Below, piece after piece: positions 24,178 to 59,017 of a stretch of 64,000 nt of DNA (its first letter is position 1; each line of letters starts with the position of its first letter). The DNA is from Agromyces larvae. Lineage in GTDB: Bacteria; Actinomycetota; Actinomycetes; Actinomycetales; Microbacteriaceae. The notes under the pieces are model-generated. The model had not been told where the DNA came from. It was given only the letters and a program-made list of their open reading frames with translations, and did not search any database. A program made the position numbers and the translations under genes. The stretch is from positions 3,658,001-3,722,000 of the forward strand of contig NZ_CP094528.1 in assembly GCF_022811705.1 (NCBI RefSeq), given 5' to 3'.

Positions 24178-25191
24178 GTGACCGATCCTGCGGCTGTGAC
24201 GTCTGTGCTGGTGCTCGTGTCCGGCATCGGGGCGGTCGCGATCGGCCTGTACCTCTGGACGGGACTCGCGCTCTCGCGGCTCTTCGCGCGCACCGGGGGC
24301 GAGCCGTGGAAGGCCTGGGTTCCGTTCGTGAACGAGGCCGAGGTGTTCGTGCGCGGCGGTCGGCCGGCGCACTCGCTCGTGTACTGCTTCATTCCACTGG
24401 TCGCGGTGTACGGACTCGTGGTGCGCGTGGCCGCGGTGCATCGCATCAACGCACGGTACGGGCGCGGCAGCGGCGCGACGGTGCTCGGCATCCTGCTGCC
24501 GCCGGTGTGGATGTCGGTGCTCGCCTGGGGGCCGGAACCGGCGCCCGAACCGCAGGTGGAGCGGTCGGAGGAACTCGACGACGCGATCGATCCGAGGGTG
24601 GCGTTCGCGCCGAGGGATGCGTCGGGCTACGCGATCCCGGCCGCGGAGGTGCCGGTGGTGGTCTCGCCGGTGGCGGCGGCGCCCGCGGTGGCGGCGGCGC
24701 CGGCAGCTCCGGCGGCGCCCGTGGCGGTGGCACCGGTGGCGGCGGCGGCCGTGGCGGTGCCGGCGACTCCGGCGACTCCGGCGGCGCCCGTGGCGGTGCC
24801 GGCGACTCCGGCGGCACCCGTGGCGGCCGTGGCCGCTCCTGCCGCACCCGTGGCGGCGAAGCAGGCCAAGTGGCGCGTCGAGCTCGCCGACGGAACGGCG
24901 ATCGAGCTGACCAGCCCGCTGGCGGTCATCGGGCGCAATCCCGATTCTTCGACCCCCGGTGAGCAGCGCATCGCGCTGCCCGACGTCGGCCGCACGCTCT
25001 CGAAGACCCATGCCCGACTCAGCTACGACGACGGAGCGTGGCGGCTCACCGACCTGAACTCGACGAACGGTTCGAGGGTGCTCGACCGGGCCGGCGTCGC
25101 GACCCCGTTGCGCCCCGGAGAACCGGTCGTCGTCGGGGTCGGGTTCATCGTCGGCGAAGTCGGCGTGCGCCTCGCGTACGAACTCATCTGA
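24178..25191 (+). CDS. DUF5684 membrane protein with C-terminal FHA domain
   Basis: 337 residues. The DUF5684 membrane part covers residues 1-115 (LARTGGEPWKAWVPFVNEA-type loop). An Ala/Val/Pro-rich flexible linker runs to about 220. A cytosolic FHA domain follows with IGRNPDSSTPGEQR, SKTHARL and NSTNGS, the residues that bind phosphothreonine. It is a close paralogue of the protein at 55780; their FHA cores can be aligned without gaps. A GTG start at 24178 (one codon inside another GTG) matches the paralogue's VTDP opening. It converges on the mycosin with an 18-base gap. Likely a membrane docking point for kinase-modified T7SS partners. Confidence 0.85.
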   Translation: MTDPAAVTSVLVLVSGIGAVAIGLYLWTGLALSRLFARTGGEPWKAWVPFVNEAEVFVRGGRPAHSLVYCFIPLVAVYGLVVRVAAVHRINARYGRGSGATVLGILLPPVWMSVLAWGPEPAPEPQVERSEELDDAIDPRVAFAPRDASGYAIPAAEVPVVVSPVAAAPAVAAAPAAPAAPVAVAPVAAAAVAVPATPATPAAPVAVPATPAAPVAAVAAPAAPVAAKQAKWRVELADGTAIELTSPLAVIGRNPDSSTPGEQRIALPDVGRTLSKTHARLSYDDGAWRLTDLNSTNGSRVLDRAGVATPLRPGEPVVVGVGFIVGEVGVRLAYELI

Positions 25192-25209
25192 AGCGATCGC
25201 GCGCGCTGA

Positions 25210-26505
25210 TCAACGTGCTGCGTCGGTCTGACGGTCGAGCAGCCCGCCGCGCAGGGTGGCGAGGGTCGGGCCGGCGTGTGTTCGACGCCGGCGCAGCACC
25301 AGCAGCGCCCCGAGCGTGCCGAGCACGCCGGCCGCGATGACGCCGGTGATCAGCAGGGTTTCGCGGGTCGCGCCGAACGGCGTCGGGCCGTGCTCGGCGT
25401 CCACGGTGACCGGTGCGGGACGGAGGGGATCGGCTCCGACACCCGTGACCGGGTGGGTCGGCCCGCGGGTGTCGGATGCGGGAATCATCGTGAGCGCGTC
25501 GTACGGCTGCACGAGCCCCCAGCCGAGCTCGTCGGTGCGCTGGTCGGGGTCGCTGCGGGTCGCACTCGCGAGCAGCCGGTACTTCCACCCGTCGGGTCCC
25601 TCGGCGGGGTGCGCTCCGGCGACGAGTGCTGCGGCTCCGCTCGCGTAGGCGGTGGCGAAGCTCGATGACGGCGTATCGGTCGCGTACAGGCAGTCGCCGG
25701 CGCCGGTCGCGGTGGTGAGCACATCCTGGCCGGGAGCCGCGAGTTCGACGTGCGGGCCATGAACGGACGCCTCGGTCGGCTGACCAAGGGCATCGCTCGC
25801 GGCGACCGCGAGTGCGCCGGGGTAGGCGGCCGGATACCGCGGTCCGTCGGCGTCCGAGGCGGAGGTGGTGCGGTTGCCGGCGCTGGCGACCACGAGGCTG
25901 CCGTTCGCGTGTGCGTACTCGACAGCGTCGCGCAGCACGTCGGAGTCGGGCACGTCGCTCAGCGAGACGTTCACGATGTCGGCGCCGCGGTCGCTGGCGA
26001 ACCGGATACCGGCCGCGAGCCGCTCGGCGCTGGGGCCGAAACCTGCCTCGATCGACGCGTCGTCGCGGCCGCGGAACACCCGCACCGAGAGCAGGCCGGC
26101 CTCGGGGGCGAGTCCGCGAACGCCTGATCCGGTCACCTCGGCGGCGGCGATGATGCCCGCGATCGCGGTGCCGTGGCCGTCGAGGTCGGTGAGCCCGTCG
26201 CTGCGCTCGCCGTCGCCGACGAGGTCGATGCCCCCGACCACCCGAGAGGCGAGGTGGGCGTTGCCGGCGTCGATGCCGGAGTCGACGACCGCGACGAGCA
26301 CGTCGGCGCCGGTCGCCCGGCTCCAGGCGAGTTCGGTCTGCAGCATCGCCAGGGCCGGAGGCGTCTGCGGGGTGTACTGCACGTTGCCGGGCTCGCATGC
26401 CTCGGCCGCGGATGCGGGCGACGGTGCGAGCAGCGGGGTCGTGAGGGCGGCGCCGCACAGGAGCGCGCCGAGCAGTGCGCCGCCGCGAACGCGTCGATGC
26501 GTCAT
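25210..26505 (-). CDS. mycP: Mycosin (type VII secretion subtilisin-like protease)
   Basis: 431-residue S8 protease. A signal peptide (ends APSPASAAE) leads to a subtilisin domain with the triad in VAVVDSGID, DGHGTAIAGII and SSSFATAYASGAAAL. Near the C-terminus is a Pro-rich stretch, then one transmembrane helix (LLITGVIAAGVLGTLGALLVL in two overlapping motifs) and a basic cytosolic tail, exactly the mycosin layout. Mycosins stabilise the ESX membrane complex from the outside. It overlaps eccB by four bases (ATGA), completing an eccD-eccB-mycP operon. Confidence 0.92.
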   Translation of the reverse strand: MTHRRVRGGALLGALLCGAALTTPLLAPSPASAAEACEPGNVQYTPQTPPALAMLQTELAWSRATGADVLVAVVDSGIDAGNAHLASRVVGGIDLVGDGERSDGLTDLDGHGTAIAGIIAAAEVTGSGVRGLAPEAGLLSVRVFRGRDDASIEAGFGPSAERLAAGIRFASDRGADIVNVSLSDVPDSDVLRDAVEYAHANGSLVVASAGNRTTSASDADGPRYPAAYPGALAVAASDALGQPTEASVHGPHVELAAPGQDVLTTATGAGDCLYATDTPSSSFATAYASGAAALVAGAHPAEGPDGWKYRLLASATRSDPDQRTDELGWGLVQPYDALTMIPASDTRGPTHPVTGVGADPLRPAPVTVDAEHGPTPFGATRETLLITGVIAAGVLGTLGALLVLRRRRTHAGPTLATLRGGLLDRQTDAAR

Positions 26506-27854
26506 CCGCCGCTCGCTGACGCGGGCTCGGCCGTGTGCGCTGCCGCCTCGGGAGTGAGGGCCGGGCCGGTGGGGAACCAGTCGATCCAGGCATTCGTCAC
26601 GGCCGTGACATCGTCGTCGTCGTATCCGAGCCGGTGGAGCACGTCGGGGTCGGCGCCCGGAACCGGGAACGCCGTGCCGGTCTCGTCGATGACGAAGACC
26701 GTCTCGGCGCGGGCCGAACCCGATCCGCCCGCCGCGACGACGGCGCCTGCACCGCGCTGCATCGCCACTCCGCCGGCGGCGCCGACCTCGGGCAGTTCGC
26801 GCTTCGCGAGGCCGATCCGGGTCGTGGGCGCCTCGCCCGAGGTGTCGAGCACCGCGCAGGGGCTGTCCCCGGTCGTGAATTCGGTGAGCACATCGCGGGG
26901 CCAGTCGGCGCCGCCGGCCGGGGTGGTCGCGGTGGTGAGCGTGGCGAGTTCGCCGGGCCCGACCTCGCGGGCCGCGCCGAATTCGGCTCCGGTGCCGAGC
27001 AGGTAGAGCTGATAGGCGAGCGGGCTGAGCGGCGCGAGTTCGCCCTCGGCCGTGACGAGGTAGCGATCGTCGTCTGGGCTGCCGGTCGGATGCACCGCCT
27101 CGCCGACCCGGAGGGCGGTGCCGGGCACCTCGGTGCCGGCTCCCGCGACGACGATGGGTTCGAGCGGATCGCCCTCGGCGAAGAGCTCGAGCCAGCGGCC
27201 CTCGACGTCGCGCGGGGCGAGCGAGCCGAGGCCTGCCGCACGCAGCACGGCGCTCGTCTGCGCCCCCGCGACGACATGGCGCCGGGCGCCGGCGACGATG
27301 AAGACCTGTTCGTCGAGGGCGACCGTGATTCCGTGTTCGGGCGTAGCGGCCGCCACCGGCAGCGACGAGAGCGCCATCACGGAGGATCCGTCCTCTGCCA
27401 GGCACGCCGCCCAGGCATCGTCGACGAGTGCGGCCCGTGCGGGCAGTTCGTCGGGGGCTCCGACGATGCCGATCGAGCGGCCGACCTCGATGCCCGCGAG
27501 GGTCGCCTGATCGGTGGTGATCACCTCGAACTCGCCCGAGGGCACCAGCAACCGGGCGCTCGCCGTGTTGACGACAGGGTGCAGCACGCCGTCGATCGCG
27601 AGGTACCGCGAACCGGTGTCGCTCGCGATGATGAGGTGGCCGTGCTCCCAACCGCTCGGCAGGCCCGGGCGGATCATCCCGATGAAGACGCCGCCGAGCA
27701 CGAGCATGATGCTCAGGGCGATGCCGGCGATGACGGCGACGAGCGGCTTCGCGGGCTCGAGTTCTCTGCCGCCGGGCGCGCCGCCGGTGAAGGCGGTGAG
27801 CAGCCGTCGTCGGCTGAACGTCTGCGCCTCGATGAGGTCCTTCTTCGTCGCCAT
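26502..27854 (-). CDS. eccB: Type VII secretion protein EccB
   Basis: 450 residues. The cytosolic opening MATKKDLIEAQTFSRRRLLTAF is the EccB hallmark (first 20 residues: M1-T20). A single helix (about 38-62) is followed by a large extracellular domain with four repeat-like units and few cysteines (ACLAED, SPCAVLD) that may form the family disulfide. EccB is the outer-face core subunit of the ESX membrane complex. Slightly shorter than mycobacterial EccB (about 480). Encoded four bases after eccD. Confidence 0.93.
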   Translation of the reverse strand: MATKKDLIEAQTFSRRRLLTAFTGGAPGGRELEPAKPLVAVIAGIALSIMLVLGGVFIGMIRPGLPSGWEHGHLIIASDTGSRYLAIDGVLHPVVNTASARLLVPSGEFEVITTDQATLAGIEVGRSIGIVGAPDELPARAALVDDAWAACLAEDGSSVMALSSLPVAAATPEHGITVALDEQVFIVAGARRHVVAGAQTSAVLRAAGLGSLAPRDVEGRWLELFAEGDPLEPIVVAGAGTEVPGTALRVGEAVHPTGSPDDDRYLVTAEGELAPLSPLAYQLYLLGTGAEFGAAREVGPGELATLTTATTPAGGADWPRDVLTEFTTGDSPCAVLDTSGEAPTTRIGLAKRELPEVGAAGGVAMQRGAGAVVAAGGSGSARAETVFVIDETGTAFPVPGADPDVLHRLGYDDDDVTAVTNAWIDWFPTGPALTPEAAAHTAEPASASGG

Positions 27855-27858
27855 GCGT

Positions 27859-29193
27859 CTATGCGAGCCCGGCGGTCACGATGCCGAGCGGCAGCAGCAG
27901 GGCCAGGGCGATGAGTTCGGCGGTGTCGGCCAGGCGCAGCAGTCGAAGGCGGGCTCGCGGGCTGAGCAGGGTGAGTCCGACCAGCAGCGCGGTCGTCGTG
28001 AGCAGCACGACGAGCAGCGCGATGCGCAGCTCGGGTTGGGTGAGCACCACCGTGAGCCCGGTGACCGCCAAGCCGACGGCTCCGAATGCCATGAGGGCGA
28101 GCACGCCGCTGCGCGCGTGCATCTGACGGGACTGGAACATCAACCCCGCGAACGCCAGCGCGCAGAGCAGCGCCCCGATCGCGCCGGAGGCGGCGACGAA
28201 CGGGGTCGCGATGAGCAGCGCGAGGGCGAGCGCGATGCGCAGCGATGTGAGTGTGCGCGCCCCCGACTCGGCACGCCGGGTGATCTCGTCGGCGTCGATC
28301 GGCGGTTGCTCGGCGAAGATCTCGGTGTCGCTCTGCGGAGAGATCACGCGAATGCGCGTCGAGCTCATCGCGAGCCAGGGCAGGCCGTTGGAGATGCTGG
28401 CGGTGAGCGCGACCATGAGGGCCCACGGGACGAGCGGATCGCCGCCGAGCAACCCCGCCGAGAGACCCGTGAAGCCGAGTGCGCCGCCGAGCGCGATCGG
28501 CGCGTAGCGCAGCTGGGGCCGATCGGGTGCGAGGGCCAGAGCGATGCCGCCCACGAGGCAGAGTCCGAGTCCGGCGGCGGCGAGCGGCCACTCCCACGGG
28601 GTCGCGGCGGGCACGGCGATCAGCCCGGCGAGTCCCCCGAAGGCGGCAGCGGCCAGTGAGAGCGCGTGACTCGCCTCGGACTGGTCGAGACGGCCGAGCA
28701 CCGCACCGGTCGTCAGCAGCACGACGGCGGCGGCGCCGGCGATGATCGCCGCGAGCATGGCGTCGGCGCCCGAGGTGACGAGCAGCAGCGCGCACAGGGC
28801 GAGGAAGGCGAGGCTGATCGCAAGCGACGTGCGCGAGCTGTCGCGCGCGGTCCAGGCCCCGTGCCGGGTGGAGGTCGCATCGATCACGGCCTCGACGATG
28901 TCGTCGTAGACCTTCGGCTCGGCCACCAGTTCACCGCGCACGAGGGTGAGCAGTTCGCCGTCGCGGACGCCCTGCGGAGCGGCCGCGCGGGAGGAGTCGA
29001 GAGCGGAGCCGTCGGCGCGGTGCAGTCGATAGCCGGTGTGCGTCAGCGTGGGGTCGAGCACGCCGGTGCTGCGGGCGAACCCCGGGATCAGCTCGACGAG
29101 GGGCACGTGAGCGGGCACGCCGACGTCGATGCGCCGATCGTCGCTCACGATCGAGATCTTGAGCACGCCGGCGGCGACGGTGTGCGGTGCCAT
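27859..29193 (-). CDS. eccD: Type VII secretion protein EccD (copy 1)
   Basis: 444 residues. A ubiquitin-like N-terminal domain (about 8-95; LKISIVSDDRRIDVGVPAHV to DGELLTLVR) is joined to 11 transmembrane helices, the EccD architecture. The ATG at 29193 is chosen for its GAGAGGAGAG ribosome site; upstream in-frame Met codons have none. It heads the leftward operon eccD-eccB-mycP and is divergent from the WXG100 genes. A second EccD-like protein is encoded at 35553, so the pore may be a heterodimer. Confidence 0.9.
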   Translation of the reverse strand: MAPHTVAAGVLKISIVSDDRRIDVGVPAHVPLVELIPGFARSTGVLDPTLTHTGYRLHRADGSALDSSRAAAPQGVRDGELLTLVRGELVAEPKVYDDIVEAVIDATSTRHGAWTARDSSRTSLAISLAFLALCALLLVTSGADAMLAAIIAGAAAVVLLTTGAVLGRLDQSEASHALSLAAAAFGGLAGLIAVPAATPWEWPLAAAGLGLCLVGGIALALAPDRPQLRYAPIALGGALGFTGLSAGLLGGDPLVPWALMVALTASISNGLPWLAMSSTRIRVISPQSDTEIFAEQPPIDADEITRRAESGARTLTSLRIALALALLIATPFVAASGAIGALLCALAFAGLMFQSRQMHARSGVLALMAFGAVGLAVTGLTVVLTQPELRIALLVVLLTTTALLVGLTLLSPRARLRLLRLADTAELIALALLLPLGIVTAGLA

Positions 29194-29399
29194 GAGTCTC
29201 TCCTCTCGATGGCGGGCAGGTTCCATCGCATCACGCGATGGAGCGCTGCCGTCGGCGACGTGGATTCGCATTCTCCCGGGGGCATGGGGGCGATCGGAAA
29301 AGCGTGCTTCACATTACTGCAACAGACGTCGCCGATCCCCCCTAACGGGGTACGCTCTCCACCGTCCACGTTGCAACTTGGGGTGAAAAGGAGGGCGAG

Positions 29400-29717
29400 A
29401 TGGCAGATGTGATCTCCGCCGAAGAAGGGGCGCTGCGCCGTGGTGCGCAGGCCGTGAACGAGGCCAAGGGAGCCATCGATCAGAAGGTCCGCGCCGTGCG
29501 TGCCGAGATCAGCGAGCTGAACGGCTACTGGAGCGGTGCCGCTGCGAACTCGTTCACGGGTCTGCTGAACCGTTGGGACGCCGAGACGACCAAGCTCAAC
29601 GAGGTGCTGGTCACCCTCGAAGAGGCGCTGTCGGGCACCGAGCGCGACCAGGCTGCGCTCGAAGAGGAGCACCAGCAGACGATCGCGGGCCTCGGCTCGA
29701 TGATGTCGGGCGCGTAG
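29400..29717 (+). CDS. WXG100-family secreted protein (first of a pair)
   Basis: 105-residue helical hairpin protein. The turn motif YWSGAAANSF holds the W-x-G between two amphipathic helices. No signal peptide or cysteines. AAAAGGAGG precedes the ATG strongly. Together with the next gene (34 bases on) it should form the antiparallel EsxA/EsxB-type heterodimer exported by the EccC machine. It carries no YxxxD/E at its tail, so it is probably the partner lacking the secretion signal. Confidence 0.92.
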   Translation: MADVISAEEGALRRGAQAVNEAKGAIDQKVRAVRAEISELNGYWSGAAANSFTGLLNRWDAETTKLNEVLVTLEEALSGTERDQAALEEEHQQTIAGLGSMMSGA

Positions 29718-29751
29718 GCGCCGAGTCGAGACACGAGAGAAGGAGACGGAT

Positions 29752-30042
29752 ATGCAGGGGTTCTCAGTCAAGCCCGAGCAGGTCATCGGTCTGGGCGGCA
29801 AGATCCGCGGCGGCGCGAGGGGGATCCGTACGGATCTCGACCGCCTCGAGTCCGAGGTCGGCAAGCTCCGCTCGGCGTGGGGCGGTGAGGCGCAGGCCGC
29901 CTACGACCAGGCCCAGCTGAAGTGGAACCGTTCGCTCGAAGAACTGCAGCAGCTGCTCGAGCAGATCGCGACCAAGACCGAGCAGATGTCGGGTGGCTAC
30001 ACCTCGGGCGACAACCAGTCGGCGAAGCGCTTCTCGGTCTGA
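29752..30042 (+). CDS. WXG100-family secreted protein with YxxxD signal
   Basis: 96-residue WXG100 protein. The turn is SAWGGEAQAAY. The C-terminus reads SGGYTSGDNQSAKRFSV, where YTSGD fits the YxxxD/E export signal recognised by the last EccC ATPase domain. AGAAGGAGAC precedes the ATG. Second gene of the pair; two strong hairpins follow it, which could favour high levels of these two messages over the downstream genes. Confidence 0.92.
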   Translation: MQGFSVKPEQVIGLGGKIRGGARGIRTDLDRLESEVGKLRSAWGGEAQAAYDQAQLKWNRSLEELQQLLEQIATKTEQMSGGYTSGDNQSAKRFSV

Positions 30043-30053
30043 TCAGGCTTCGA

Positions 30054-30117
30054 GCGATGGGGTGCGCGGCGGACCGTGGCACCCCATCGCTGTGCGGCGG
30101 CCCCCGGGCCGCCGCAC
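30054..30117. terminator. Tandem hairpins after the WXG100 pair
   Basis: GCGATGGGGTGC (30054-30065) pairs perfectly with GCACCCCATCGC (30079-30090). Immediately after, GTGCGGCGGCCC (30092-30103) pairs with GGGCCGCCGCAC (30106-30117). Twelve-base stems in tandem suggest an attenuator or an RNA-processing/stability block. Confidence 0.65.
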
Positions 30118-30171
30118 TTCGGTGAGCGGTACCGCATTCGCACGTGGAGCGAGAGAACGGAGGGGCCGAAG

Positions 30172-30660
30172 ATGGCTGAGGAGATCTCGGTCGAACCCGA
30201 GCAGGTGTTCGCGGCGTTGGGTGTCGTGTTCAACCGGCTGAGTCACCTGCCGCCGGCTGAGGCACTCACGCAGACGACGGGGGCGACGGGCGCCGACAGC
30301 GACGCGGTCGCGAAGTTCGCGCTCGCGCTGAACAGGCTCGGTGAGCAACTCAGCACCACGGTCGACGGCATCGCGAAGTCGATGATCGCCATCGGCGGGC
30401 AGATCCGCGAAGCGGTGCGCCATCAGGTCGAACTGGATGCCACGTTCTCCGACGAGGCGGACACGATCACGGCGCTCCTCGACGGGCTGGAGCGGGCGTA
30501 CCCCGAGTACGCGGCCGCGGCCGCGGCAGCGGCGGCATCTGCGGCGTCCACGGCCGTCGCAGCGGCGGCGGCCGCCGCGTCTCCGGCGGGCACGTCATCG
30601 ACCGCAGCATCGACGACGCCGGTGACGACGAGCTCGGGGCTCACCCTCGAGGCTCGCTGA
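30172..30660 (+). CDS. T7SS-associated helical protein with Ala-rich tail
   Basis: 162 residues from an ATG after ACGGAGGGG. Residues 1-110 are predicted helical (EPEQVFAALGVVFNRL, FALALNRLGEQLSTTVDGIAKSMIAIGGQIREA as neighbouring helices), reminiscent of WXG-like fold proteins though the W-x-G turn is absent. The tail is Ala/Ser/Thr-rich and disordered. It lies between the WXG100 pair and a second protease, so it is probably a substrate or accessory of the secretion system. No known family recognised. Confidence 0.7.
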   Translation: MAEEISVEPEQVFAALGVVFNRLSHLPPAEALTQTTGATGADSDAVAKFALALNRLGEQLSTTVDGIAKSMIAIGGQIREAVRHQVELDATFSDEADTITALLDGLERAYPEYAAAAAAAAASAASTAVAAAAAAASPAGTSSTAASTTPVTTSSGLTLEAR

Positions 30661-30673
30661 GGTGGCATTCGTG

Positions 30674-31960: not shown

Positions 31961-31962
31961 CC

Positions 31963-50812: not shown

Positions 50813-50824
50813 GCACCGCGCGCC

Positions 50825-50916: not shown

Positions 50917-51882
50917 ATGACGATCGCCCCAGTCCAGACGACCTGGTTCGCCGAGACGTTCGCCCTGCTGGCCGACAACGTCGAGCAGGCGATCCTCGGC
51001 AAGCGGCACGTCATCGAGCTCGTGCTCGCCACCGCGATCAGCAAGGGCCACGTGCTGCTCGAGGACTACCCGGGCACCGGCAAGACGGCGCTCGCCCGGT
51101 CGATCGCGCAGACCGTGCACGGCACGAACGCGCGCATCCAGTTCACGCCCGACCTGCTGCCCGGCGACGTCACCGGCATCACCGTGTTCGACCAGAAGCG
51201 CGGCGAGTTCGAGTTCCACGCCGGGCCGGTGTTCGCGAACATCGTGCTCGCCGACGAGATCAACCGCGCCAGCCCGAAGACCCAGTCGGCGCTGCTCGAG
51301 GTGATGGAGGAGGGCAACGTCACCATCGACGGCGTGACCCGCCCCGTCGGCGACCCGTTCCTCGTGATCGCGACGCAGAACCCGATCGAGCAGGGCGGCA
51401 CCTACCGCCTGCCCGAGGCGCAGCTCGACCGGTTCATGATCAAGACCTCGGTGGGCTACCCCGACGAAGCCGCGACGCTGCGGATCCTGCAGGGCGTGGC
51501 CGAGCCGCGCGGCGACCTCGACGCGGTCGCCACCACCGACACGCTCGTCGCGATGAGCGACCTCTCGCGCGGCGTGTACGTGAACCCGCTCATCTCCGAC
51601 TACATCATGCGGATCGTCGACGCGACCCGCCGCGCGAGCGAGGTGCGCCTCGGCGTCAGCGTGCGCGGCGCGATCGCGCTGTCGAAGCTCGTCATGACCT
51701 GGGCCGCCGCACGCGGCCGCAGCTTCGTCACCCCCGACGACGTGCGCGAACTCGCGGTGCCCGCCCTCGCCCACCGCCTCGTGCTCGAGCCCGAGGCCGA
51801 GTTCGACGGCGTCACCGCGGTCGCGGTCGTCGGCCAGATCCTGCTCGACGTCGCTCCGCCCCGGGAGAACGGCACCCTGTGA
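50917..51882 (+). CDS. MoxR-type AAA+ ATPase
   Basis: 321-residue MoxR ATPase. Walker A DYPGTGKTAL, Walker B VLADEINRAS, sensor-1 ATQNPIEQGGTYRLPEAQLDRF (two motifs) and the C-terminal lid are canonical. MoxR ATPases act as chaperones for assembling or activating neighbouring proteins. GTGA overlap ties it to the DUF58 protein, the usual MoxR-DUF58-transglutaminase trio. AGAGGA precedes the ATG. Confidence 0.95.
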   Translation: MTIAPVQTTWFAETFALLADNVEQAILGKRHVIELVLATAISKGHVLLEDYPGTGKTALARSIAQTVHGTNARIQFTPDLLPGDVTGITVFDQKRGEFEFHAGPVFANIVLADEINRASPKTQSALLEVMEEGNVTIDGVTRPVGDPFLVIATQNPIEQGGTYRLPEAQLDRFMIKTSVGYPDEAATLRILQGVAEPRGDLDAVATTDTLVAMSDLSRGVYVNPLISDYIMRIVDATRRASEVRLGVSVRGAIALSKLVMTWAAARGRSFVTPDDVRELAVPALAHRLVLEPEAEFDGVTAVAVVGQILLDVAPPRENGTL

Positions 51883-53246
51883 CCTTCCACACCGAGTCGC
51901 GGTTGACGCGCACCGCCGCCGCCACGGGCACCGTGACCCGTGCCGGTACGGTGACGCGCGTCTCCCGCGTGCGCCGCGGCCCGGTGGCGAACGCGGTCTG
52001 GCGGCTCCGGGTGTGGTGGCTGCGCACCCGGGTCGCGGTGCGCACCGCGGCCGGGTGGCTGCGCGACACGGTGTCGCCGGCGGGTGCCGTGCTCGCGTTC
52101 GTCGCGGTCGCCGGGGTCATCGGCGGCGCCGCGTACGGGTGGGTCGAGGCGTGGGCGGCCGCGGCGGTGGCGGCGATCCTGCTCGTCCTGTGCGTGCCGT
52201 TCCTGCTCGGCGCGCACGAGTACCGGCTGCAGCTCGAGCTCGACCGCGACCGGGTGGTCGCGGGCTCCGAGGTGCACGGGCGGCTCGACCTGGTGAACGC
52301 CGGGCGCCGCACCGCGCTGCCCGGCGTGGTCGACATCCCCGTCGGGGGCGGGCTCGTCGAGGTGCATGTGCCGCTGCTGCGCGGCGGCGCGCACCACGCG
52401 CACGAGCTCGCGATCGCCGCCGAGCGGCGCGGCATCATCGACGTCGGCCCGATGACGGTCTCGCGGGGCGACCCGATCGGCATCCTGCGGCGCGAGCAGC
52501 GCTGGCCCGACGTGCAACGGGTGCACGTGCACCCCGTGACGGTGCGGATCCCGTCGCTGAGCGCCGGGCTCGTGCGCGACCTCGAGGGCACGCCCACCGG
52601 CACCCTCGTCGACGCCGACCTCTCGTTCCACGCCGTGCGCGAGTACGTGCCGGGCGACTCGCAGCGGCACGTGCACTGGAAGGCGACCGCGCGCACCGGC
52701 AAGCTCATGGTCCGCCAGTACGAGGAGTCGCGCCACGCGCGCATCGCCGTGCTGCTCGACGTCGACCGTGCCGAGTACGCCGACGACGACGAGTTCGAGA
52801 CCGCCGTGAGCGCGGCCGCATCGATCGGCGTCCAAGCGGTGCGCGAGGGCCGCGAGGTGTCGGCGGGTGTCGGCGGCCCGCTGCCTGACTTCGGCGGCGA
52901 CGTGCTGTCGCTGCGCACGCTGCCCACGCTCACGCCGCGGGCGTTCCTCGACGCGATGTCGGGCGTCGAGTCCGGCGATCGGGTGACCAGGGTGGAGCAG
53001 GTCGCGACGCTGGCCGCGCAGACGTACGAGCACCTGTCGGTCGTGTTCCTCGTCACGGGCTCGCTCCTGCCGCTGCAGCGGCTGCGGCAGGCCGGCATCA
53101 CCCTGCCCCCGGGCGTCGGCGTGATCGCGGTGCGCTGCGAGCTCGGCGCCGAGCCGTCGCTGCGGCGCACGCGCGAGGTGCAGGTGCTCACGGTCGGCGC
53201 GCTCGGCGACCTCACCCGCATGCTCGCCAAGGGGGTGCTCGGATGA
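51879..53246 (+). CDS. DUF58 membrane protein
   Basis: 455 residues. Two transmembrane helices (about 68-110) are followed by an immunoglobulin-like part and the DUF58 domain, with the signature REYVPGDSQRHVHWKATART and LMVRQYEES. VLLDVDRAEY resembles a VWA-type metal-binding strand. It is the standard partner of MoxR. GTG start overlaps the MoxR stop (GTGA); its own stop overlaps the next ATG. Confidence 0.92.
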   Translation: MTFHTESRLTRTAAATGTVTRAGTVTRVSRVRRGPVANAVWRLRVWWLRTRVAVRTAAGWLRDTVSPAGAVLAFVAVAGVIGGAAYGWVEAWAAAAVAAILLVLCVPFLLGAHEYRLQLELDRDRVVAGSEVHGRLDLVNAGRRTALPGVVDIPVGGGLVEVHVPLLRGGAHHAHELAIAAERRGIIDVGPMTVSRGDPIGILRREQRWPDVQRVHVHPVTVRIPSLSAGLVRDLEGTPTGTLVDADLSFHAVREYVPGDSQRHVHWKATARTGKLMVRQYEESRHARIAVLLDVDRAEYADDDEFETAVSAAASIGVQAVREGREVSAGVGGPLPDFGGDVLSLRTLPTLTPRAFLDAMSGVESGDRVTRVEQVATLAAQTYEHLSVVFLVTGSLLPLQRLRQAGITLPPGVGVIAVRCELGAEPSLRRTREVQVLTVGALGDLTRMLAKGVLG

Positions 53247-55783
53247 CCCGCGGCGAAGCGGTCCGTTCGCGCGCCCGCCGCAGTGCGCCCGCCGAGGGCG
53301 CCGCGGTGCGGTGGCTCGGCTTCGGCTACCTCCTCGTCGGTGCGGCGCTCGCCGGATGGGCCGCATGGCCGATCCACGAGGTCGGCCGGGTCTGGCTCGT
53401 CGCAGCCACCGGCCTCGGCCTCGGCATCGGTGCGGCGCTCCTCGGGCGCCGGCTCGGCGGCGGCCGGGTGCTCGGCGCCCTCGTGACGACCGCGCTCGCC
53501 GCGCTCGGCTACGTGCTCGTCGTGGTGCCGGTCGCGGTGCCGCACGCCATGGGCTCGCTCGAGACGTGGGCCCGGGGCATCCGCGACGGCGCGACCGGCA
53601 TCGTGCTCGGCTGGAAGCAGGTGCTCACGCTCGAGCCCCCGCTCGGCGACTACCAGGCCGTGCTCGTCCCGTTCCTCGTCGTCACCGTGGTCGCCACGAC
53701 GATCGCGGCGTTCCTCATCGACCGCGGCGGGCGCGCGGCGCCGTTCGCGGTGCTGCCGGTGCTCGCGATGAGCGTCTACGGCATCGCGTTCGGCACCAGC
53801 GCGGTCAGCGAACCGCTTCGGCTCGCGGGCGTCGAGCTGGCGGCCGCGCGCGAGATCGCGATCGGCGTCGCCGGGCTGGCTGCGGCGGGCGCCTGGCTCG
53901 TCGCACGATCCCGGATGCTCCGCCGGCGCTCGCTCGCTCGTGCCCGCGCCACGACGGTGCGTCAGGGCGCCGCGTCGGCCGGCCCGGCGGTGCGTCGCAA
54001 CCTGCTCGCCGCCTCGCTCGTCGTCGTCGCCCTGGTCGGCGGCGTCGCCGCCGCGCCCGCGGTCGCGTCGCTCGGCCCGCGCACGGCGCTGCGCGACGAG
54101 GTCGAACCGGCGGTCGTGATGCAGCAGCAGGCCAGCCCGCTCGCCGCCTACCGCTCCTGGTTCACGGCCGACCTGCTCGACGAGACCGTGCTCACCGTGT
54201 CGGGGGATCTCGACGCGTTCGACCGGCTGCCGTTCGCCGCGCTCGAGGAGTTCGACGGCGAGGTCTTCCACGTCGACCCCGAGGCCCGGTACACGCGGCT
54301 GCCGCGCAGCGCCGACTCCGGTGCGGGCCTGGCCGAGCTGGAGGTGGTCGTCGGCGGCGCCTACTCGGGGGTCTGGGTGCCCGCGCCGCCGACGCTCGCA
54401 GCGGCGCCGGTATTCGAGGGCGACCGCGCCGAGGTGCTGGCCGACGGGTTCCACGTCACCGCCGACGGCGGTGCGGTCGAGGTCGCCGACGCCGACGGCG
54501 TCACCGGCCTGCGCGCGGGTGACCGGTACCGGCTCGTCGCCGAGCCCACCGCCGACGCCGGCGAGGCGCGTTCGGCGTTCGCATCGTCGGCCGGCGGCGA
54601 ATCCGCGCTCGACGCCGAGGCGTACCCGTCGCTCACCGAGTGGGTCGATCTGCAGGAGGTGCCGCGCACCGGCGCCGGCTATCTCGAGCTGGTCGAACAG
54701 CTGCGCGCCCGCGGGTACCTGAGCCACTCCGTCCTCGCCGACGACGAGGCCGAACCGTGGATCTCGCGGCTCGCCGCCGAGACTGGCTACTCCTTCCTGC
54801 CGAGCTACGCCGGGCATTCGCGGGCCCGCATCGAGGAGCTGTTCGCCGAGCTCGTCGATCAGCAGCGCCGGGCCGGCGCCGAACCCGCCGACGAGCTGCT
54901 CGTCGCCGGCGTCGGCGACGACGAGCAGTTCGCCGCTGCGGCCGCTCTGCTCGCACGCCAGTTCGGCTTCGAATCGCGGGTGGTGCTCGGGGTCCGGCTG
55001 CCGGGTTCCGGTGAGTCGACCACGGCCGCCCCGGTCTGCGACGGCACCTGCACGGGCGCCTCGCTCACCGCGTGGGCCGAGGTTCGCGCCGGCTCTGGGG
55101 CCTGGGTGAGCGTGGACGCCTCGCCGCAGTTCGCGGTGCACCCGAACCGGCTCGCCGAGGGGGAGCAGCTGCCGAAGCATCCGACCGTCCCCGACGACGC
55201 CCGCAGCGAGCCGCTCGACCCGCCGCCCGCCGAGAACGACGCGGCCGATACCGTGCCGCCGCCGGCCGACGACCCGGCCGAGGCGGGCGCCGTCTGGGTG
55301 CGCACCGCCGGGTACGTCGGCGCGGGCGTGCTCGCCGCGCTGCTGATCGTGCTGCCGTTCGCGGCCGTGGTGATCGCCAAGACCGCTCGGGCGCGTGCCC
55401 GCAGGTCCCTCGGCGACCCCGAGCTCTCAGCGGTGTCGGCGTGGGAGGAGCTGCGCGACCGGTACGCCGACGAGGGCATCGTGCTCGACGACCGCGGCGG
55501 GCGGGCGCGCGGCGCAGCGGCGATCGGCCGACCTCGTGCCGCAGCGCTCGCCGAGGTCGTCGACCGCGCCGTGTTCGCCGCCGACGCCGCCGATCCCGCG
55601 CTGGCCGACGAGGCGTGGCGACTCGTCGACGCCGAACGCCGAGAACTCGCCGCCGAGCGCCGCCGGCTCGCCGGACTGCGCGCCGCCCTGACCCTGCGTT
55701 CGCTCCTGCAGCGGGTGCGCCCGACCGCCGCACCGCGCACGAGCGCGAACCGCCTGACCCATCCGAAGGAGATCACCTCGTGA
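53243..55783 (+). CDS. Transglutaminase-like membrane protein with degenerate active site
   Basis: 846 residues. About six helices in the first 230 residues, an outer region with the transglutaminase-like core (about 470-635), another helix near 690, and a cytosolic tail. In the core, GDDEQFAAAAALLARQFGFESRVVLG aligns with the segment that normally has GxCxxFA, but no cysteine is there. SLTAWAEVR has Thr where the catalytic His (HAW) should be. Only the Asp in VSVDASP is kept. So it is probably a binding fold, not an enzyme. It is the TGM member of the PFNA set; overlaps DUF58 and the next gene by four bases. Confidence 0.88.
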   Translation: MTRGEAVRSRARRSAPAEGAAVRWLGFGYLLVGAALAGWAAWPIHEVGRVWLVAATGLGLGIGAALLGRRLGGGRVLGALVTTALAALGYVLVVVPVAVPHAMGSLETWARGIRDGATGIVLGWKQVLTLEPPLGDYQAVLVPFLVVTVVATTIAAFLIDRGGRAAPFAVLPVLAMSVYGIAFGTSAVSEPLRLAGVELAAAREIAIGVAGLAAAGAWLVARSRMLRRRSLARARATTVRQGAASAGPAVRRNLLAASLVVVALVGGVAAAPAVASLGPRTALRDEVEPAVVMQQQASPLAAYRSWFTADLLDETVLTVSGDLDAFDRLPFAALEEFDGEVFHVDPEARYTRLPRSADSGAGLAELEVVVGGAYSGVWVPAPPTLAAAPVFEGDRAEVLADGFHVTADGGAVEVADADGVTGLRAGDRYRLVAEPTADAGEARSAFASSAGGESALDAEAYPSLTEWVDLQEVPRTGAGYLELVEQLRARGYLSHSVLADDEAEPWISRLAAETGYSFLPSYAGHSRARIEELFAELVDQQRRAGAEPADELLVAGVGDDEQFAAAAALLARQFGFESRVVLGVRLPGSGESTTAAPVCDGTCTGASLTAWAEVRAGSGAWVSVDASPQFAVHPNRLAEGEQLPKHPTVPDDARSEPLDPPPAENDAADTVPPPADDPAEAGAVWVRTAGYVGAGVLAALLIVLPFAAVVIAKTARARARRSLGDPELSAVSAWEELRDRYADEGIVLDDRGGRARGAAAIGRPRAAALAEVVDRAVFAADAADPALADEAWRLVDAERRELAAERRRLAGLRAALTLRSLLQRVRPTAAPRTSANRLTHPKEITS

Positions 55784-57465
55784 CCGATCCCGAAGCCGCT
55801 GCCGGCGCGGCACTGCTGCTGCTGGCGCTGATCCTGGTCGAACTGCTGTTCGTCGCGGCCTGGTACGTGTGGACCGGCCTCTCGTTCTCGCGCCTGTTCC
55901 GACGGATGTCGGCCGAGCCCTGGCGAGGATGGGTGCCGGTGCTGAACACCGCCGAGGTGCTCGCGCTCGGCGGTGTGTCGCGCTGGTGGGTGCTGCTGTT
56001 CGCGGTGCCGATCGCGAACCTCTACGCCCTGTTCCTGTACATCGTCGCGGCGAATCGCGTCGGCCGGCTGTTCGGCAAGGGCGCCGGGATGACCGTGCTC
56101 GCCGTGCTCGTGCCGCCGCTGTGGGCGACGCTGCTCGGCTGGGGCAAGGTCGCACCCGACCTCGAGCACGGGCGGTTCCCCTCGGCGCCGGCGCCGGCCA
56201 GAGTCTCGACCGCGACCGGCCCGCTCGCGACCGTCGCCCAGCCCGGCGCGCCGATCGGCGGCGCGCCGGCCGCGTGGCCCGCCGATCCGTACACGCCGTT
56301 CGGCGCACCCGCGGCGCCGGGCCAGTACGGCGCACCCGCGGCGCCGGCGCAGTACGGGGTGCCGAGCCCGGCCGCGTCGTACGAGCCGGTCGCGCCGGCC
56401 CTCCCCGAGCCGTCCGTCGCCCCCGGACCCCCGCCCGCGAGCGTGGTGGACCAGGCTGCGCCGAACCCCTGGGCGCCCGTGGACGCGCAGCACGTCGTGC
56501 CGCCGTCGGCACCGTACTCGCCGGCCGCGTACGGCGCGCCGGTGGAGCCGGCCGGGTACGGCGCGCCCGCGCCGGCCGACCCGGCCGCGTACGGTGCGCC
56601 CGCGCCGGCCGACCCGTACGGGTACGCGGCCCCGGCCGCACCGGCCGACCCCTACGGGCAGGCCGCACCGGCCGACCCGGCGGCGTACGCCGCGCCCGCC
56701 CCGGCCGACCCGACCGCGTATGCGGCCCCGGCCGCGCCGGCCGCGTACCCCGCGCCCGCCCAGCACACCGAACCGTACCCGCAGACCGCCCCCGCCCCCG
56801 CCCCCGCACCGGCCGAGCCGCTGCCGGGGTCGGGGTCGCTGCCGGGGTCGGGCATGATCGTGCCGCCGGCCGGCATCATCGGCGCCGACGCAGGCGGCAC
56901 GGGGCATCCGCCCGCCGCGCCGGCGCAGCCCGCGTGGTCGACACCGCAGACCGACGCGGGCAGCGCCCCGGCCGCAGCGTGGTCGGCCCCGGCCGTGCCG
57001 GTCGACGAGGTCGACGGCGCCACGGTGCTGCGCCTCGACGACGCCGCCCTCGACGAGGCGCGCCGGCAGGCGCCGGCCGACCCCGAGCCGTACGCCGACG
57101 ACGACTACGAGGCGACGGTCGTGGTCGATCGCCGGCCGAAGGTCGCCTGGCGGCTCCGGCTCGACGACGGCAGCGAGCTCGCGCTCACCGGTGACCGGGT
57201 GCTGCTCGGGCGCAACCCGGCTGATGCCGCGACCGGCGAGCAGCGGCTCGCGGTGCCGGACTCCACCCGGACCCTGTCGAAGACGCACGCCCGGCTCGAA
57301 CTCGTGGCCGGGCAGTGGGTCATCACCGACCTGGGCTCGACGAACGGCGTGCTCATCGACGTCGGCGGCGAGGAGCAGCTCATCGACGCCGGCGTGGCGA
57401 CGCCGGTTCCGGGCCGGTTCGTGCTCGGCAAGCTGGGCATGCAGATCGTGGCGGGCACCCCATGA
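55780..57465 (+). CDS. DUF5684 membrane protein with Pro/Ala/Tyr repeats and FHA domain
   Basis: 561 residues from a GTG after GAAGGAG. DUF5684 membrane part (1-120; MSAEPWRGWVPVLNTAEVL), then about 300 residues of Pro/Ala/Tyr-Gly repeats such as AYGAPAPADP, then FHA (about 455-555; LGRNPADAATGEQR, SKTHARL, GSTNGVL). Just before the FHA domain EATVVVDRR (Thr446) resembles the (E/D)RTIVV motifs of the protein at 58289 and could be phosphorylated, as the N-terminal threonines of GarA/OdhI are. Paralogue of the protein at 24178. Confidence 0.88.
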   Translation: MTDPEAAAGAALLLLALILVELLFVAAWYVWTGLSFSRLFRRMSAEPWRGWVPVLNTAEVLALGGVSRWWVLLFAVPIANLYALFLYIVAANRVGRLFGKGAGMTVLAVLVPPLWATLLGWGKVAPDLEHGRFPSAPAPARVSTATGPLATVAQPGAPIGGAPAAWPADPYTPFGAPAAPGQYGAPAAPAQYGVPSPAASYEPVAPALPEPSVAPGPPPASVVDQAAPNPWAPVDAQHVVPPSAPYSPAAYGAPVEPAGYGAPAPADPAAYGAPAPADPYGYAAPAAPADPYGQAAPADPAAYAAPAPADPTAYAAPAAPAAYPAPAQHTEPYPQTAPAPAPAPAEPLPGSGSLPGSGMIVPPAGIIGADAGGTGHPPAAPAQPAWSTPQTDAGSAPAAAWSAPAVPVDEVDGATVLRLDDAALDEARRQAPADPEPYADDDYEATVVVDRRPKVAWRLRLDDGSELALTGDRVLLGRNPADAATGEQRLAVPDSTRTLSKTHARLELVAGQWVITDLGSTNGVLIDVGGEEQLIDAGVATPVPGRFVLGKLGMQIVAGTP

Positions 57466-58289
57466 CCGGCGCAGTCATCCTCAGCGTCGGCTCGGCGACC
57501 CATCCCGGGCGGCGTCGCGAGGTGAACGAGGACTCGTTCCTCGCGCGCGCCCCGGTGTTCCTCGTCGCCGACGGCATGGGCGGCTACGAGGCCGGTGACC
57601 GGGCGAGTCGCGCGGTCGTGGAGGCGTTCGACGAGACGGTCGCCGACGGCGACCGCACGACGATCGAAGCGGTGCGCGATGCGCTCACCGGCGCCGACGA
57701 GGCGGTCGCCTCGATCGCCGCCGACACGACCCGCGGGGCCGGCAGCACCGTCACCGGCATCGCGCTCGTCGACTCAGACGGCACGCCGAGCTGGCTCGTG
57801 TTCAACGTGGGCGATTCGCGGGTCTACCGGCATTTCGGCACCGAACTGCAGCAGCTGACCGTCGACCACTCGCTCGCCCAGGAGCTCGTCGACGACGGAT
57901 CGCTCGCACCCGAGGACATGCGCTCGTACGCGCAGCGCAACGTCATCACCCGGGCGATCGGCGCACCCGACAGCACGGCGGACAGCTGGCTGCTGCCGGT
58001 GACCAACGGCGAGCGGCTGCTGCTGTGCTCCGACGGCCTGACGAGCGAGGTCTCCGACGAGGCGATCCGCGCGACGCTGACGATGTCGGGTCGCCCCGAG
58101 TCGGCGGCCGAGGCGCTTGTCGCCCGCGCCAACGAGGCGGGCGGGCGCGACAACATCACCGTCGTGGTGGTCGACGTGGTCGCCGGCGGGCTGACCCAGG
58201 CGTTCGCCGGCGAGCCGACCTCGACCTCCGCCCCGGCGGAGTCGACGCTCGATGCGACCACCATCCCGGTGCGCGAGGTGCGGGGCTGA
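57462..58289 (+). CDS. PP2C-family Ser/Thr phosphatase
   Basis: 275-residue soluble PP2C. Metal-binding motifs are VNEDSF, VADGMGGYEAGDRAS, NVGDSRVYR, LLCSDGLTSEV and GGRDNITVVVVDV, all with the expected aspartates, so it should be active. A 40-residue tail after the fold is Ser/Thr-rich (ESTLDATTIPV). It would reverse the kinase at 43647. Corresponds to PrpC of the PFNA cluster. Starts within the previous stop (ATGA). Confidence 0.95.
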   Translation: MTGAVILSVGSATHPGRRREVNEDSFLARAPVFLVADGMGGYEAGDRASRAVVEAFDETVADGDRTTIEAVRDALTGADEAVASIAADTTRGAGSTVTGIALVDSDGTPSWLVFNVGDSRVYRHFGTELQQLTVDHSLAQELVDDGSLAPEDMRSYAQRNVITRAIGAPDSTADSWLLPVTNGERLLLCSDGLTSEVSDEAIRATLTMSGRPESAAEALVARANEAGGRDNITVVVVDVVAGGLTQAFAGEPTSTSAPAESTLDATTIPVREVRG

Positions 58290-59017
58290 TGTCCGAGACC
58301 CGCAACCCCGTGGATCCTGCGCCCGGTGAGGTCGAGGAGCGCACGTTCGTGATCGAGCGACCGCGTCCGTCGGTCGAGCCGTACGCCGACTTCGAGGAGC
58401 GCACGATCGTCGTCGGGCGCGACCCGGTCGATGTCGACGACGACGCCGCGTTCGACCGCACGATCGTGGTCGGCCCGGCCGACGGCCCGGCCGGCGACCG
58501 GGGCGGTGCCGGAACCGGCGGTCGAACCGGCGGCGGGACCGGCGCCGATGCAGGCGCCGGGGCCGACGAGTTCGATCGCACGGTCGTGGTGGGTCGTGCC
58601 GGGATCGCGGTCGCGGCCGACGCGCTCGACGAGGAACGCACCATCGTGCCCGGCGCCGCGGCGCACGGCGCGGACGCGACCGTGCAGACGGGCCGGGGGC
58701 GCGCGCCGGTCGGGCCGCGTCGTCGTCGGCGCACGCTCACCCCCGCACCCCTCGACCCCGCGACGCTGCGCCCGTCGGTGCCGGGCCGCGGTGCGGGTGC
58801 CGTCGAGGCCTACCCTGCGCGACCGGTGCCCACCCGCATCACGCCGATGCCGGTCGTCATGGACGAGACCCCGCCGACCCGCGACGTCGGCGCGAAGCCG
58901 TCGGTGGCCCGTCGTGCCCGTCGCGACGCCGTGGCCGGACTGGTCGCGGTCGGAGCATCCGTCGTCCTCTCGGTGAGCGGTCTGATCGCGCTCGCCCTGA
59001 TCGTCCCGTTGCTCTGA
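58289..59017 (+). CDS. Tail-anchored protein with repeated (E/D)RT(I/V/F)V motifs
   Basis: 242 residues. The N-terminal 125 residues are acidic and disordered, with EERTFVIE, EERTIVVG, FDRTIVVG, FDRTVVVG and EERTIVPG centred on Thr19, 39, 58, 98 and 118, about 20 residues apart. A GRTGGG at Thr80 fills the missing slot. Four of the five have Ile or Val at +3, the position FHA domains read after phosphothreonine. A Pro/Arg region follows, then one C-terminal helix (about 215-240). Last gene of the locus, directly after the phosphatase. I know no named family; it looks like a multivalent phospho-threonine ligand. Confidence 0.85.
   Translation: MSETRNPVDPAPGEVEERTFVIERPRPSVEPYADFEERTIVVGRDPVDVDDDAAFDRTIVVGPADGPAGDRGGAGTGGRTGGGTGADAGAGADEFDRTVVVGRAGIAVAADALDEERTIVPGAAAHGADATVQTGRGRAPVGPRRRRRTLTPAPLDPATLRPSVPGRGAGAVEAYPARPVPTRITPMPVVMDETPPTRDVGAKPSVARRARRDAVAGLVAVGASVVLSVSGLIALALIVPLL

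Follow-up and report, generated by a model that had tools for sequence, protein, structure and literature searches.

A type VII secretion core beside a PFNA-type gene set in Agromyces larvae, and its possible control by threonine phosphorylation

Why should the genes of a type VII secretion system (T7SS) stand next to a kinase, a phosphatase and a giant protein, and do the two sets work together? The question is raised by a locus in a 64,000-nucleotide stretch of DNA, here called the window, at positions 3658001–3722000 of C1, the single contig of the 4.0-Mb genome of Agromyces larvae. There, a T7SS block is followed by a block that resembles the PFNA operon of bifidobacteria and encodes FHA proteins, a Ser/Thr kinase, a giant protein, MoxR, DUF58, a protein with a TgpA-like transglutaminase fold (TGM), a PP2C phosphatase and a protein with repeated threonine motifs, which we call ThrRep. 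A first-pass annotation, made from the sequence, had proposed that the two blocks form one phospho-regulated machine. Our reading, held on a slender balance of probability, is that the PFNA-type block controls and assembles the T7SS by threonine phosphorylation. A joint machine is partly supported, as a tendency with a plausible mechanism and not as an obligate unit.

The list of genes proved to be real: Pfam and NCBIfam matches confirm both the T7SS core and the kinase/giant/MoxR/DUF58/TGM/FHA/PP2C set (Table 1). By these matches the secretion genes were confirmed as a T7SSa core, consisting of EccB, EccC, two EccD proteins, two mycosin-like proteases and a WXG100 pair, with EccE not found. 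EccC scored above both NCBIfam cut-offs (EccCa 914 bits, EccCb 829 bits). The divergent EccD2 was linked to EccD1 by profile comparison (hhalign probability 97.7, E 1.9e-12, 401 columns); PDB sequence searches gave no matches for either EccD and one weak FHA match for the second DUF5684-FHA protein (FHA2). The call of two mycosin-like proteases stands as far as their S8 domains and Asp, His and Ser motifs go, but both fall below the NCBIfam mycosin cut-off of 279 bits, MycP2 at 244 and MycP1 at 89. The reported lack of EccE was upheld in that nothing in the whole genome exceeded the PF11203 cut-off, in a search that had no positive control, since 14 control genomes gave no match either. The WXG100 pair is duplicated within the T7SS locus in two relatives, G037 (L013) and G220 (L132, L133), G and L numbers being our handles for genomes and loci.

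The second set had been equated with the bifidobacterial PFNA cluster. Its order of kinase, giant, MoxR, DUF58 and TGM at 43677–55783 agrees with that, and the giant takes the place of fn3 in the published order. The giant had been described as an Ig/FN3 protein; the FN3 part was not borne out, as Pfam found no FN3 domain at E values up to 10 and gave Big_9 and Cadherin repeats instead. The likeness meant here is one of gene order and not of sequence. The two blocks had also been described as running on, largely with overlaps of 1–4 bases. Three direction groups are present: DUF5684-FHA1 alone on the forward strand, EccD1-EccB-MycP2 on the reverse strand, and a forward run of 21 genes from the first WXG100 gene to ThrRep. 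Within that run, 12 of the 20 junctions overlap by 1 or 4 bases and the largest gap is 129 bases, counts that depend on script-chosen gene starts. The locus is thus not one operon. A GNAT gene missing from the earlier list sits between EccC and the first FHA gene of the PFNA-type block. Tandem PFNA-like sets occur in Microbacterium galbinum and M. commune (L055 and L071), where a second giant and MoxR lie downstream of the first, and G376 has two PFNA-like sets in succession beside a T7SS.

Are the two blocks neighbours by chance? The annotation had suggested comparing gene neighbourhoods for co-occurrence and adjacency, and the comparison answers in two parts: the sets lie close together in most genomes that have both, and each is often found alone. 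When all searches were pooled, EccC lay within 35 kb of TGM in 22 of the 29 genomes having both, against an expectation of about 3% per genome for random placement, which rules out chance adjacency. In a family sample of 60 genera, EccC was found in 11 (E <1e-100), one of them of a more distant type (G031, 40% identity), and a PFNA-type TGM in 12 (E <1e-80). Both occurred in five genomes, in all five within 25 kb of each other.

Named PFNA loci extend this picture. We collected 80, mostly from Microbacteriaceae, and a T7SS-type gene matched in the flanks of up to 10 kb in 27, which is not an upper limit because a placement like that in the window escapes such flanks. The 27 include loci from Microbacterium, Leifsonia, Leucobacter, Mycetocola, Cryobacterium, Rhodoglobus, Demequina and Cellulomonas, with Demequina (L084) and Cellulomonas (L110) as linked cases from other families. 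Four of the matches are weak: L079 (EccC alone, at a contig end), L085 (distant EccC type), L104 (MycP2 alone) and L115, which is probably another ATPase, its genome having no EccC at 1e-100. A genome-wide EccC search covered 50 of the 80 loci and found EccC in 24 genomes, in 20 of them of the window type (at least 50% identity). The window-type EccC was within 25 kb of TGM in 15 of these 20; as for the other five, G061 is linked through EccB and EccD1, the PFNA set of G060 lies on a 13-kb contig, and three have the two on other contigs. The distant EccC type (36–41% identity) served as a comparison group, and one of its six copies was near TGM (G089), with another at 50 kb (G105).

Strict thresholds applied to 297 genomes of the order left five with both a window-type EccC and TGM: the window genome (G000) and G347, linked at 11 kb, G220 at 31 kb, and G382 and G170, where the two are apart. 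Further PFNA-like sets end 0.1–0.4 kb from a window-type EccC in G354 and G343 and share one locus with it in G300 and G376; these four genomes were chosen because giant and EccC share a contig, and give no rate. A giant set also shares a locus with the distant EccC type in G208, and about 39 kb separate set and EccC in G274.

Several observations weigh against a fixed partnership. EccC occurred without TGM in 6 of 11 genomes of the family sample and TGM without EccC in 7 of 12; G065, G082 and G083 carry the two on different contigs; about 258 kb and 471 kb separate them in G382 and G170, which belong to another family; and many genomes across the order hold EccC and the giant on different contigs or megabases apart (for example G172, G259 and G364). 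Moreover, the genomes are related, some being near-identical species, so that the counts are not independent and binomial figures overstate significance. A PFNA set without a T7SS is common, also within the genus (G130 and G262). An obligatory single machine is ruled out, because PFNA without T7SS and T7SS without PFNA are both common. What survives of the proposed phospho-regulated machine is the tendency to adjacency and, as described below, the presence of a kinase/phosphatase/FHA set beside two unlike T7SS ATPases; as an obligate unit it fails in G130, G170 and G382.

The same-genus genome G130, sister of the window genome on the PFNA tree, shows how the blocks are bounded. By blastn, the T7SS block at 24149..42088 is missing from the same place in G130, and window positions 24148 and 42089 sit only 26 bases apart there; the T7SS genes and DUF5684-FHA1 therefore make up a discrete unit of 17.9 kb. 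G130 reads malate synthase, GNAT, FHA3, kinase, giant, MoxR, DUF58, TGM, FHA2, PP2C, ThrRep, MFS, and has no EccC genome-wide at E 1e-200. G262, of the same genus, also lacks the T7SS block and has a nearly complete PFNA set, with no match to FHA3. In G347, again of the same genus, the T7SS block lies between GNAT and FHA3, as against before GNAT in the window. DUF5684-FHA1 may be a remnant of an earlier PFNA copy that lay upstream; on its tree, it groups with the G347 copy and is nearer to Microbacterium FHA2 than to FHA2 of its own locus, on long branches.

Three block orders were seen across relatives: PFNA then T7SS (most linked loci), T7SS then PFNA (the window and G347), and PFNA inside T7SS, between EccC and MycP2, in the Leifsonia aquatica group (L083/G088). 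The linked state, traced on the TGM tree, needs 12 changes, at least 11 of them forced by starred branches. In this labelling, 16 of 88 rows stayed unlabelled because contigs end early, and "no" stands for the lack of a T7SS gene in roughly 10 kb of flanking sequence, so that a T7SS farther away or upstream could be missed; for 50 named genomes the genome-wide EccC search covers such cases. Because so many changes are needed, the pairing appears from the tree to have been made or lost repeatedly. EccC is split in two pieces at two linked loci (G347:C1:232289-236217 and G092:C1:2888027-2891028), where the secretion motor may be broken while the PFNA set stays.

Adjacency could also mean that a large island was transferred horizontally, with both sets as passengers that share no function. 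The clean presence or absence of the T7SS block, the 12 changes and the permuted block order fit such a history. However, the T7SS proteins of the window and G347 are about as diverged (EccC 77% and EccB 60% identity) as the PFNA proteins (MoxR 88%, TGM 60%), which does not suggest recent import, and no mobility gene was found among the Pfam-scanned genes between 24 and 62 kb. We regard the island explanation as very improbable.

Is the PFNA-type block confined to EccC systems? With the first 601 residues of the giant as query, relatives were found in 150 of the 297 genomes at E up to 1e-8. One belongs to a second set in the window genome itself (G000:C1:481182-498766; L162, L040), which reads FHA, PP2C, kinase, giant, MoxR, DUF58, TGM, FHA and ends in an ATPase of 1021 residues, whose matches to EssC and EccC models fall short of the cut-offs. 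We then took 20 distant giant loci, one per genome from eight families, chosen from the stronger matches, those that were listed, for family spread and for distance from contig ends. A relative of the second-site ATPase occurs in 11 of these 20 clusters (34–40 kb fetched). In G269, G308, G299 and G381 it has about 1480 residues and scores 519–547 bits on the EssC model (cut-off 778). The G269 protein, the one scanned with Pfam, has an N-terminal FHA domain, and all four proteins match FHA-protein models at their N-terminus. A profile hidden Markov model for WXG100, seeded from those 11 clusters and the window, found WXG100 genes in 7 of the 11 clusters with the ATPase and in none of the nine without. 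In the three EssC-type clusters scanned, an RDD-FHA gene lies between TGM and PP2C.

The partner type, mapped on a MoxR+DUF58 tree of 69 rows (64 different), changes 15 times. These changes and the 12 changes in the linked state rule out an ancestral fusion kept ever since. The PFNA-type block is thus shown to be portable: elsewhere in the order, related sets are accompanied by an EssC-like ATPase and often by WXG100 genes too. Three points tell the other way: nine of the 20 distant clusters have no such ATPase, no WXG100 gene was found in four of the 11 that do, and none lies within the fetched stretch of the second set in the window genome.

Nine of these genomes (G269, G316, G338, G379, G381, G331, G308, G299 and G400) also share a conserved protein of 230–256 residues (L185 7340-8044 in G269). 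Its gene adjoins that of the EssC-like ATPase in most clusters and that of the giant in G299. By eye it looks like a degenerate FHA domain with a helix-turn-helix-like region after it; neither Pfam nor NCBIfam gave a match for the G269 copy.

These data bear on a competing explanation, in which the PFNA-type set is a self-contained envelope-signalling or giant-adhesin operon and the T7SS block an uncoupled neighbour. Such an operon would explain why G130, and very nearly G262, keep the set without a T7SS, why 7 of the 12 PFNA genomes in the family sample have no EccC at E 1e-100, and why ThrRep and its motif occur where there is no T7SS; bifidobacterial accounts of PFNA likewise see a stand-alone signalling operon (PMC8430577). 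It sits poorly with the proximity in 22 of 29 genomes in three block orders, and with the seven of 20 distant clusters that combine an EssC-like ATPase with WXG100, where all four scanned ATPases are FHA-like at their N-terminus. We consider an uncoupled operon unlikely. Because related sets recur beside two kinds of T7SS motor gene, the PFNA-type set likely switches or builds the T7SS.

How might one block act on the other? Clues come from the gene that follows PP2C. In 56 of the 71 loci with PP2C, another gene follows directly on the same strand (within 400 bases), and its product has a single transmembrane (TM) segment at the C-terminus in 55 of 56; duplicate loci (11) and loci lacking a PP2C match (38) did not enter this survey. 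An acidic-x-T-x-V motif is enriched over shuffled sequences (p<=0.01) in 30 of the 56 post-PP2C proteins as compared with 6 of 969 background genes, with 500 shuffles for the former and 100 for the latter; the motif had first been scored with another pattern. The ThrRep repeats vary by lineage, many converging on [DE]xT[VI]V[VI]xR, and are few or missing in some lineages, Leucobacter among them. No Pfam family matched ThrRep over cut-off.

The motif recurs in cis. Among 56 FHA genes after TGM, 46 have it in the 60-residue stretch that precedes the FHA domain; none of 10 gene-called RDD-FHA proteins does, and for random windows of that length the share is 4%. The binding residues are kept in all four FHA domains of the locus, and an FHA-site pattern is present in most other T7SS loci listed, with none in G003, G048, G020 and G056. 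The catalytic motifs of the window kinase and the metal-site motifs of PP2C are intact. Of 29 window-type T7SS loci, 27 encode an RDD-FHA or FHA relative no more than 9 kb from EccC, and RDD-FHA stands between TGM and PP2C in the three EssC-type clusters scanned; for these reasons RDD-FHA is likely the port between the secretion and PFNA halves. From these motifs we infer a threonine-phosphorylation switch.

Here too, part of the evidence points the other way. The post-PP2C neighbour is missing in 15 of 71 loci, and 26 of the 56 proteins miss p<=0.01. The RDD-FHA proteins of EssC-type clusters carry, by eye, T-R-[VI] or a similar variant before the FHA domain. Only 16 of the 29 T7SS loci had a kinase match in the fetched stretch. 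ThrRep and the motif are also found in PFNA sets without a T7SS, and so are independent of secretion.

The remaining genes of the block suggest a role in the envelope. A model of TGM (pLDDT 79.8) matches the periplasmic domain of TgpA. In 99 sequences, duplicate loci included, the catalytic Cys is replaced by Asp in 99 of 99 and the His by A, S, T, E or G in 99 of 99, and the Asp is kept in 95 of 99. A functional transglutaminase is ruled out by the missing Cys and His, and by its sequence the window TGM is a pseudoenzyme. Because two TGM paralogues in the window genome (L040, L042) also lack catalytic Cys and His, the loss is more widespread and not peculiar to this locus; this suggests that much of the actinobacterial transglutaminase-fold family associated with MoxR and DUF58 is catalytically dead. 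By eye, the TGM of the distant locus in G299 retains the His but not the Cys. As for the giant, its N-terminal 430 residues are predicted to form one TM helix and a beta-propeller (AlphaFold2, pLDDT 84.5), and the top Foldseek matches of this part are largely beta-propeller proteins.

Coupling might then be purely structural, MoxR-DUF58-TGM and the giant building a wall-crossing conduit for the T7SS and the kinase, PP2C and FHA proteins serving only its assembly. In line with this, the giant is near 2000 residues in most loci where it is called whole and has the N-terminal TM segment and predicted beta-propeller just described, an Ig-domain giant has been proposed as a conduit in T7SSd (PMC11217815), and in bifidobacteria the MoxR encoded in the PFNA operon is a substrate of the operon's kinase (PMC8430577). 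But RDD-FHA is encoded in the secretion half and its binding site is kept in the window, which points to a phospho-link to the motor too. We therefore find a role confined to conduit assembly improbable.

In the mechanism that we prefer, in which the PFNA-type block both controls and assembles the T7SS, the membrane kinase would phosphorylate the acidic-x-T-V-V repeats of ThrRep as well as the copy of this motif in the DUF5684-FHA2 linker. ThrRep would then be a putative phosphothreonine scaffold that recruits FHA proteins, among them RDD-FHA, encoded between EccD2 and EccC. With its canonical FHA site and no motif of its own, RDD-FHA is the proposed reader on the secretion side. MoxR, DUF58 and TGM may help to assemble the envelope part, and the giant, with its TM anchor, predicted beta-propeller and Ig-like stalk, may span the wall beside the secretion core. 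PP2C would reset the phosphorylation state; a PP2C phosphatase also takes part in the threonine-phosphorylation control of type VI secretion.

How does this locus compare with known systems? It shares with T7SSa/ESX an EccB, EccC and EccD1 above curated cut-offs, two S8 mycosin-like proteases and the WXG100 pair. It differs in the diverged EccD pair, the doubling of the mycosin-like protease, an RDD-FHA gene beside EccC, an EccE that was not found and the attached kinase/PP2C/FHA/giant set. EccE is missing from some ESX-4 systems, and the description of T7SSa in PMC11217815 (Garrett, Higginson and Palmer 2024) names no kinase, phosphatase, FHA protein or giant. The same source reports kinases, phosphatases and FHA proteins with several of the types T7SSc–j. 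In T7SSd and T7SSe it lists, much as in the second set of the window, a Ser/Thr kinase, a large Ig-domain protein, an FHA protein and PPM phosphatase (T7SSe) (PMC11217815). Compared by description, the TsdH/TseK protein, with a single TM segment and an unstructured cytoplasmic part, may be a counterpart of ThrRep, which has one TM segment and repeats, and the composition of T7SSd (WXG100, FHA-ATPase, kinase, Ig giant) is matched by the EssC-like clusters of relatives (PMC11217815). By contrast, the motor in the window is an EccC with EccB, EccD and mycosins, and no FHA is among the 25 Pfam families listed for EccC; the EssC-like ATPase with N-terminal FHA of T7SSd is not at the window locus and is present in the relative G269. 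TsdI of T7SSd has a signal peptide and a C-terminal TM segment, unlike the N-terminal TM segment of the window giant, and MoxR, DUF58 and transglutaminase have no occurrences in the main text of the T7SSd/e source (PMC11217815).

The PFNA operon of bifidobacteria has the same order of kinase, large surface protein, MoxR, DUF58 and TGM, followed by PP2C, a small protein and an FHA gene (PMC8430577); in the window, the FHA gene (with DUF5684) precedes PP2C. The window differs also in a giant without FN3 by Pfam, a kinase without ectodomain and the attached T7SS block. The bifidobacterial literature, as represented by PMC8430577, treats PFNA as a stand-alone signalling operon, and the word "secretion" is absent from that paper's main text. 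GarA and OdhI also have a threonine motif on the N-terminal side of their FHA domain; once phosphorylated, the motif binds to the FHA domain of the same protein (PMC2784874). By analogy, the linker motif of DUF5684-FHA2 could occupy its own FHA domain. DUF5684-FHA2 differs in being a 561-residue membrane protein whose motif, the part of the layout seen here, is also repeated in trans on ThrRep. Threonine-phosphorylation control of type VI secretion follows the same logic of a membrane kinase and an FHA protein, in an unrelated machine (PMC11217815).

We found no description of a T7SSa with this kinase/PP2C/FHA/giant set among the titles and abstract openings listed by searches of the open-licence PMC literature. 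Within that literature, as far as the sources cited here cover it, three points are apparently new: a T7SSa core with a separable T7SSd/e-like phospho set, a ThrRep motif shared with the FHA2 linker, and the link between PFNA and an EssC-like ATPase. A wider proposal, which we advance tentatively and would not call probable, is that across the order Actinomycetales PFNA-type sets provide type VII secretion with its control and envelope half. A portable phosphothreonine module, MoxR-DUF58-TGM and an Ig giant would then have been swapped between EssC-type (T7SSd-like) and EccC-type (T7SSa) motors, and the bifidobacterial PFNA operon would belong to secretion.

With a T7SSa that has a separable phospho-module, and a sister species with an empty site, it would be possible to test directly whether an EccC machine is under phosphothreonine control, and ThrRep supplies a concrete candidate substrate and phosphopeptide. 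If PFNA-type sets prove to be part of secretion, the current view of the bifidobacterial PFNA operon as an immune-signal sensor would need revisiting. The MoxR-DUF58-pseudo-transglutaminase trio would, if this is true, gain a job in assembling a secretion apparatus or a surface giant.

Table 1 Genes of the T7SS and PFNA-type blocks, with window positions
Feature	Position	Strand	Description and evidence
DUF5684-FHA1	24205..25191	+	Membrane protein, C-terminal FHA with canonical G-R, S, H, N-G; alternative start 24175; Pfam
MycP2	25210..26505	-	Mycosin-like S8 protease; hydrophobic N- and C-terminal segments; Pfam S8
EccB	26502..27854	-	Pfam; NCBIfam EccB 173 bits (cut-off 154)
EccD1	27859..29193	-	YukD-like domain and TM helices; Pfam; NCBIfam EccD 117 bits (cut-off 95)
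WXG1	29400..29717	+	WXG100 protein 1; Pfam
WXG2	29752..30042	+	WXG100 protein 2; Pfam
Small protein	30172..30660	+	Script label "EspC-like" is only a label; no Pfam match (queried from start 30076)
MycP1	30662..31960	+	Second mycosin-like S8 protease; Pfam; Asp/His/Ser motifs
Candidate cargo	31963..33285	+	WXG-like N-terminus, long Gly-rich tail; Pfam WXG100 19 bits, below cut-off
Candidate cargo	33282..34358	+	Gly-rich, acidic tail; no Pfam match
Candidate cargo	34355..35095	+	WXG100_2-like; Pfam WXG100_2 28.4 bits (cut-off 27)
Small protein	35092..35556	+	No Pfam match (scanned in longer frame 34915-35556)
EccD2	35553..36923	+	Divergent EccD; Pfam EccD below cut-off; hhalign to EccD1
RDD-FHA	36920..38116	+	Membrane protein, canonical FHA, no TVVV motif; Pfam; FHA residues
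EccC	38116..42096	+	ATPase, two TM segments, three FtsK stretches; Pfam; NCBIfam EccCa/EccCb
GNAT acetyltransferase	42101..42664	+	Pfam; adjoins PFNA set in T7SS-free G130 too
FHA3	42688..43629	+	FHA protein without TM segment; Pfam
Ser/Thr kinase	43677..44774	+	Catalytic motifs present; C-terminal TM segment, no ectodomain; Pfam
Giant	44774..50812	+	N-terminal TM, predicted beta-propeller, Ig/cadherin repeats, Pro-rich tail; Pfam, AlphaFold2, Foldseek
MoxR	50917..51882	+	AAA+ ATPase; Pfam
DUF58 protein	51879..53246	+	Pfam
TGM	53243..55783	+	TgpA-like transglutaminase fold, catalytic Cys and His absent; sequence columns, model
DUF5684-FHA2	55780..57465	+	Membrane protein; TVVV motif directly before canonical FHA (GarA/OdhI-like layout); Pfam
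PP2C	57462..58289	+	Phosphatase; metal-site motifs present; Pfam
ThrRep	58289..59017	+	Tail-anchored; repeated acidic-x-T-[VI]-V motifs

Glyoxylate-cycle genes (isocitrate lyase and malate synthase) flank the locus upstream of 24.1 kb; past 59.0 kb, Pfam identifies an MFS transporter, a regulator and an alcohol dehydrogenase. Judged by PFNA protein, Agromyces agglutinans (TGM about 60%) is the closest of the named relatives among the fetched loci. At 17666-18586 on the reverse strand, next to a PadR regulator, the window encodes a third DUF5684 protein, which has no FHA domain, and all three DUF5684 matches of the genome fall inside the window.

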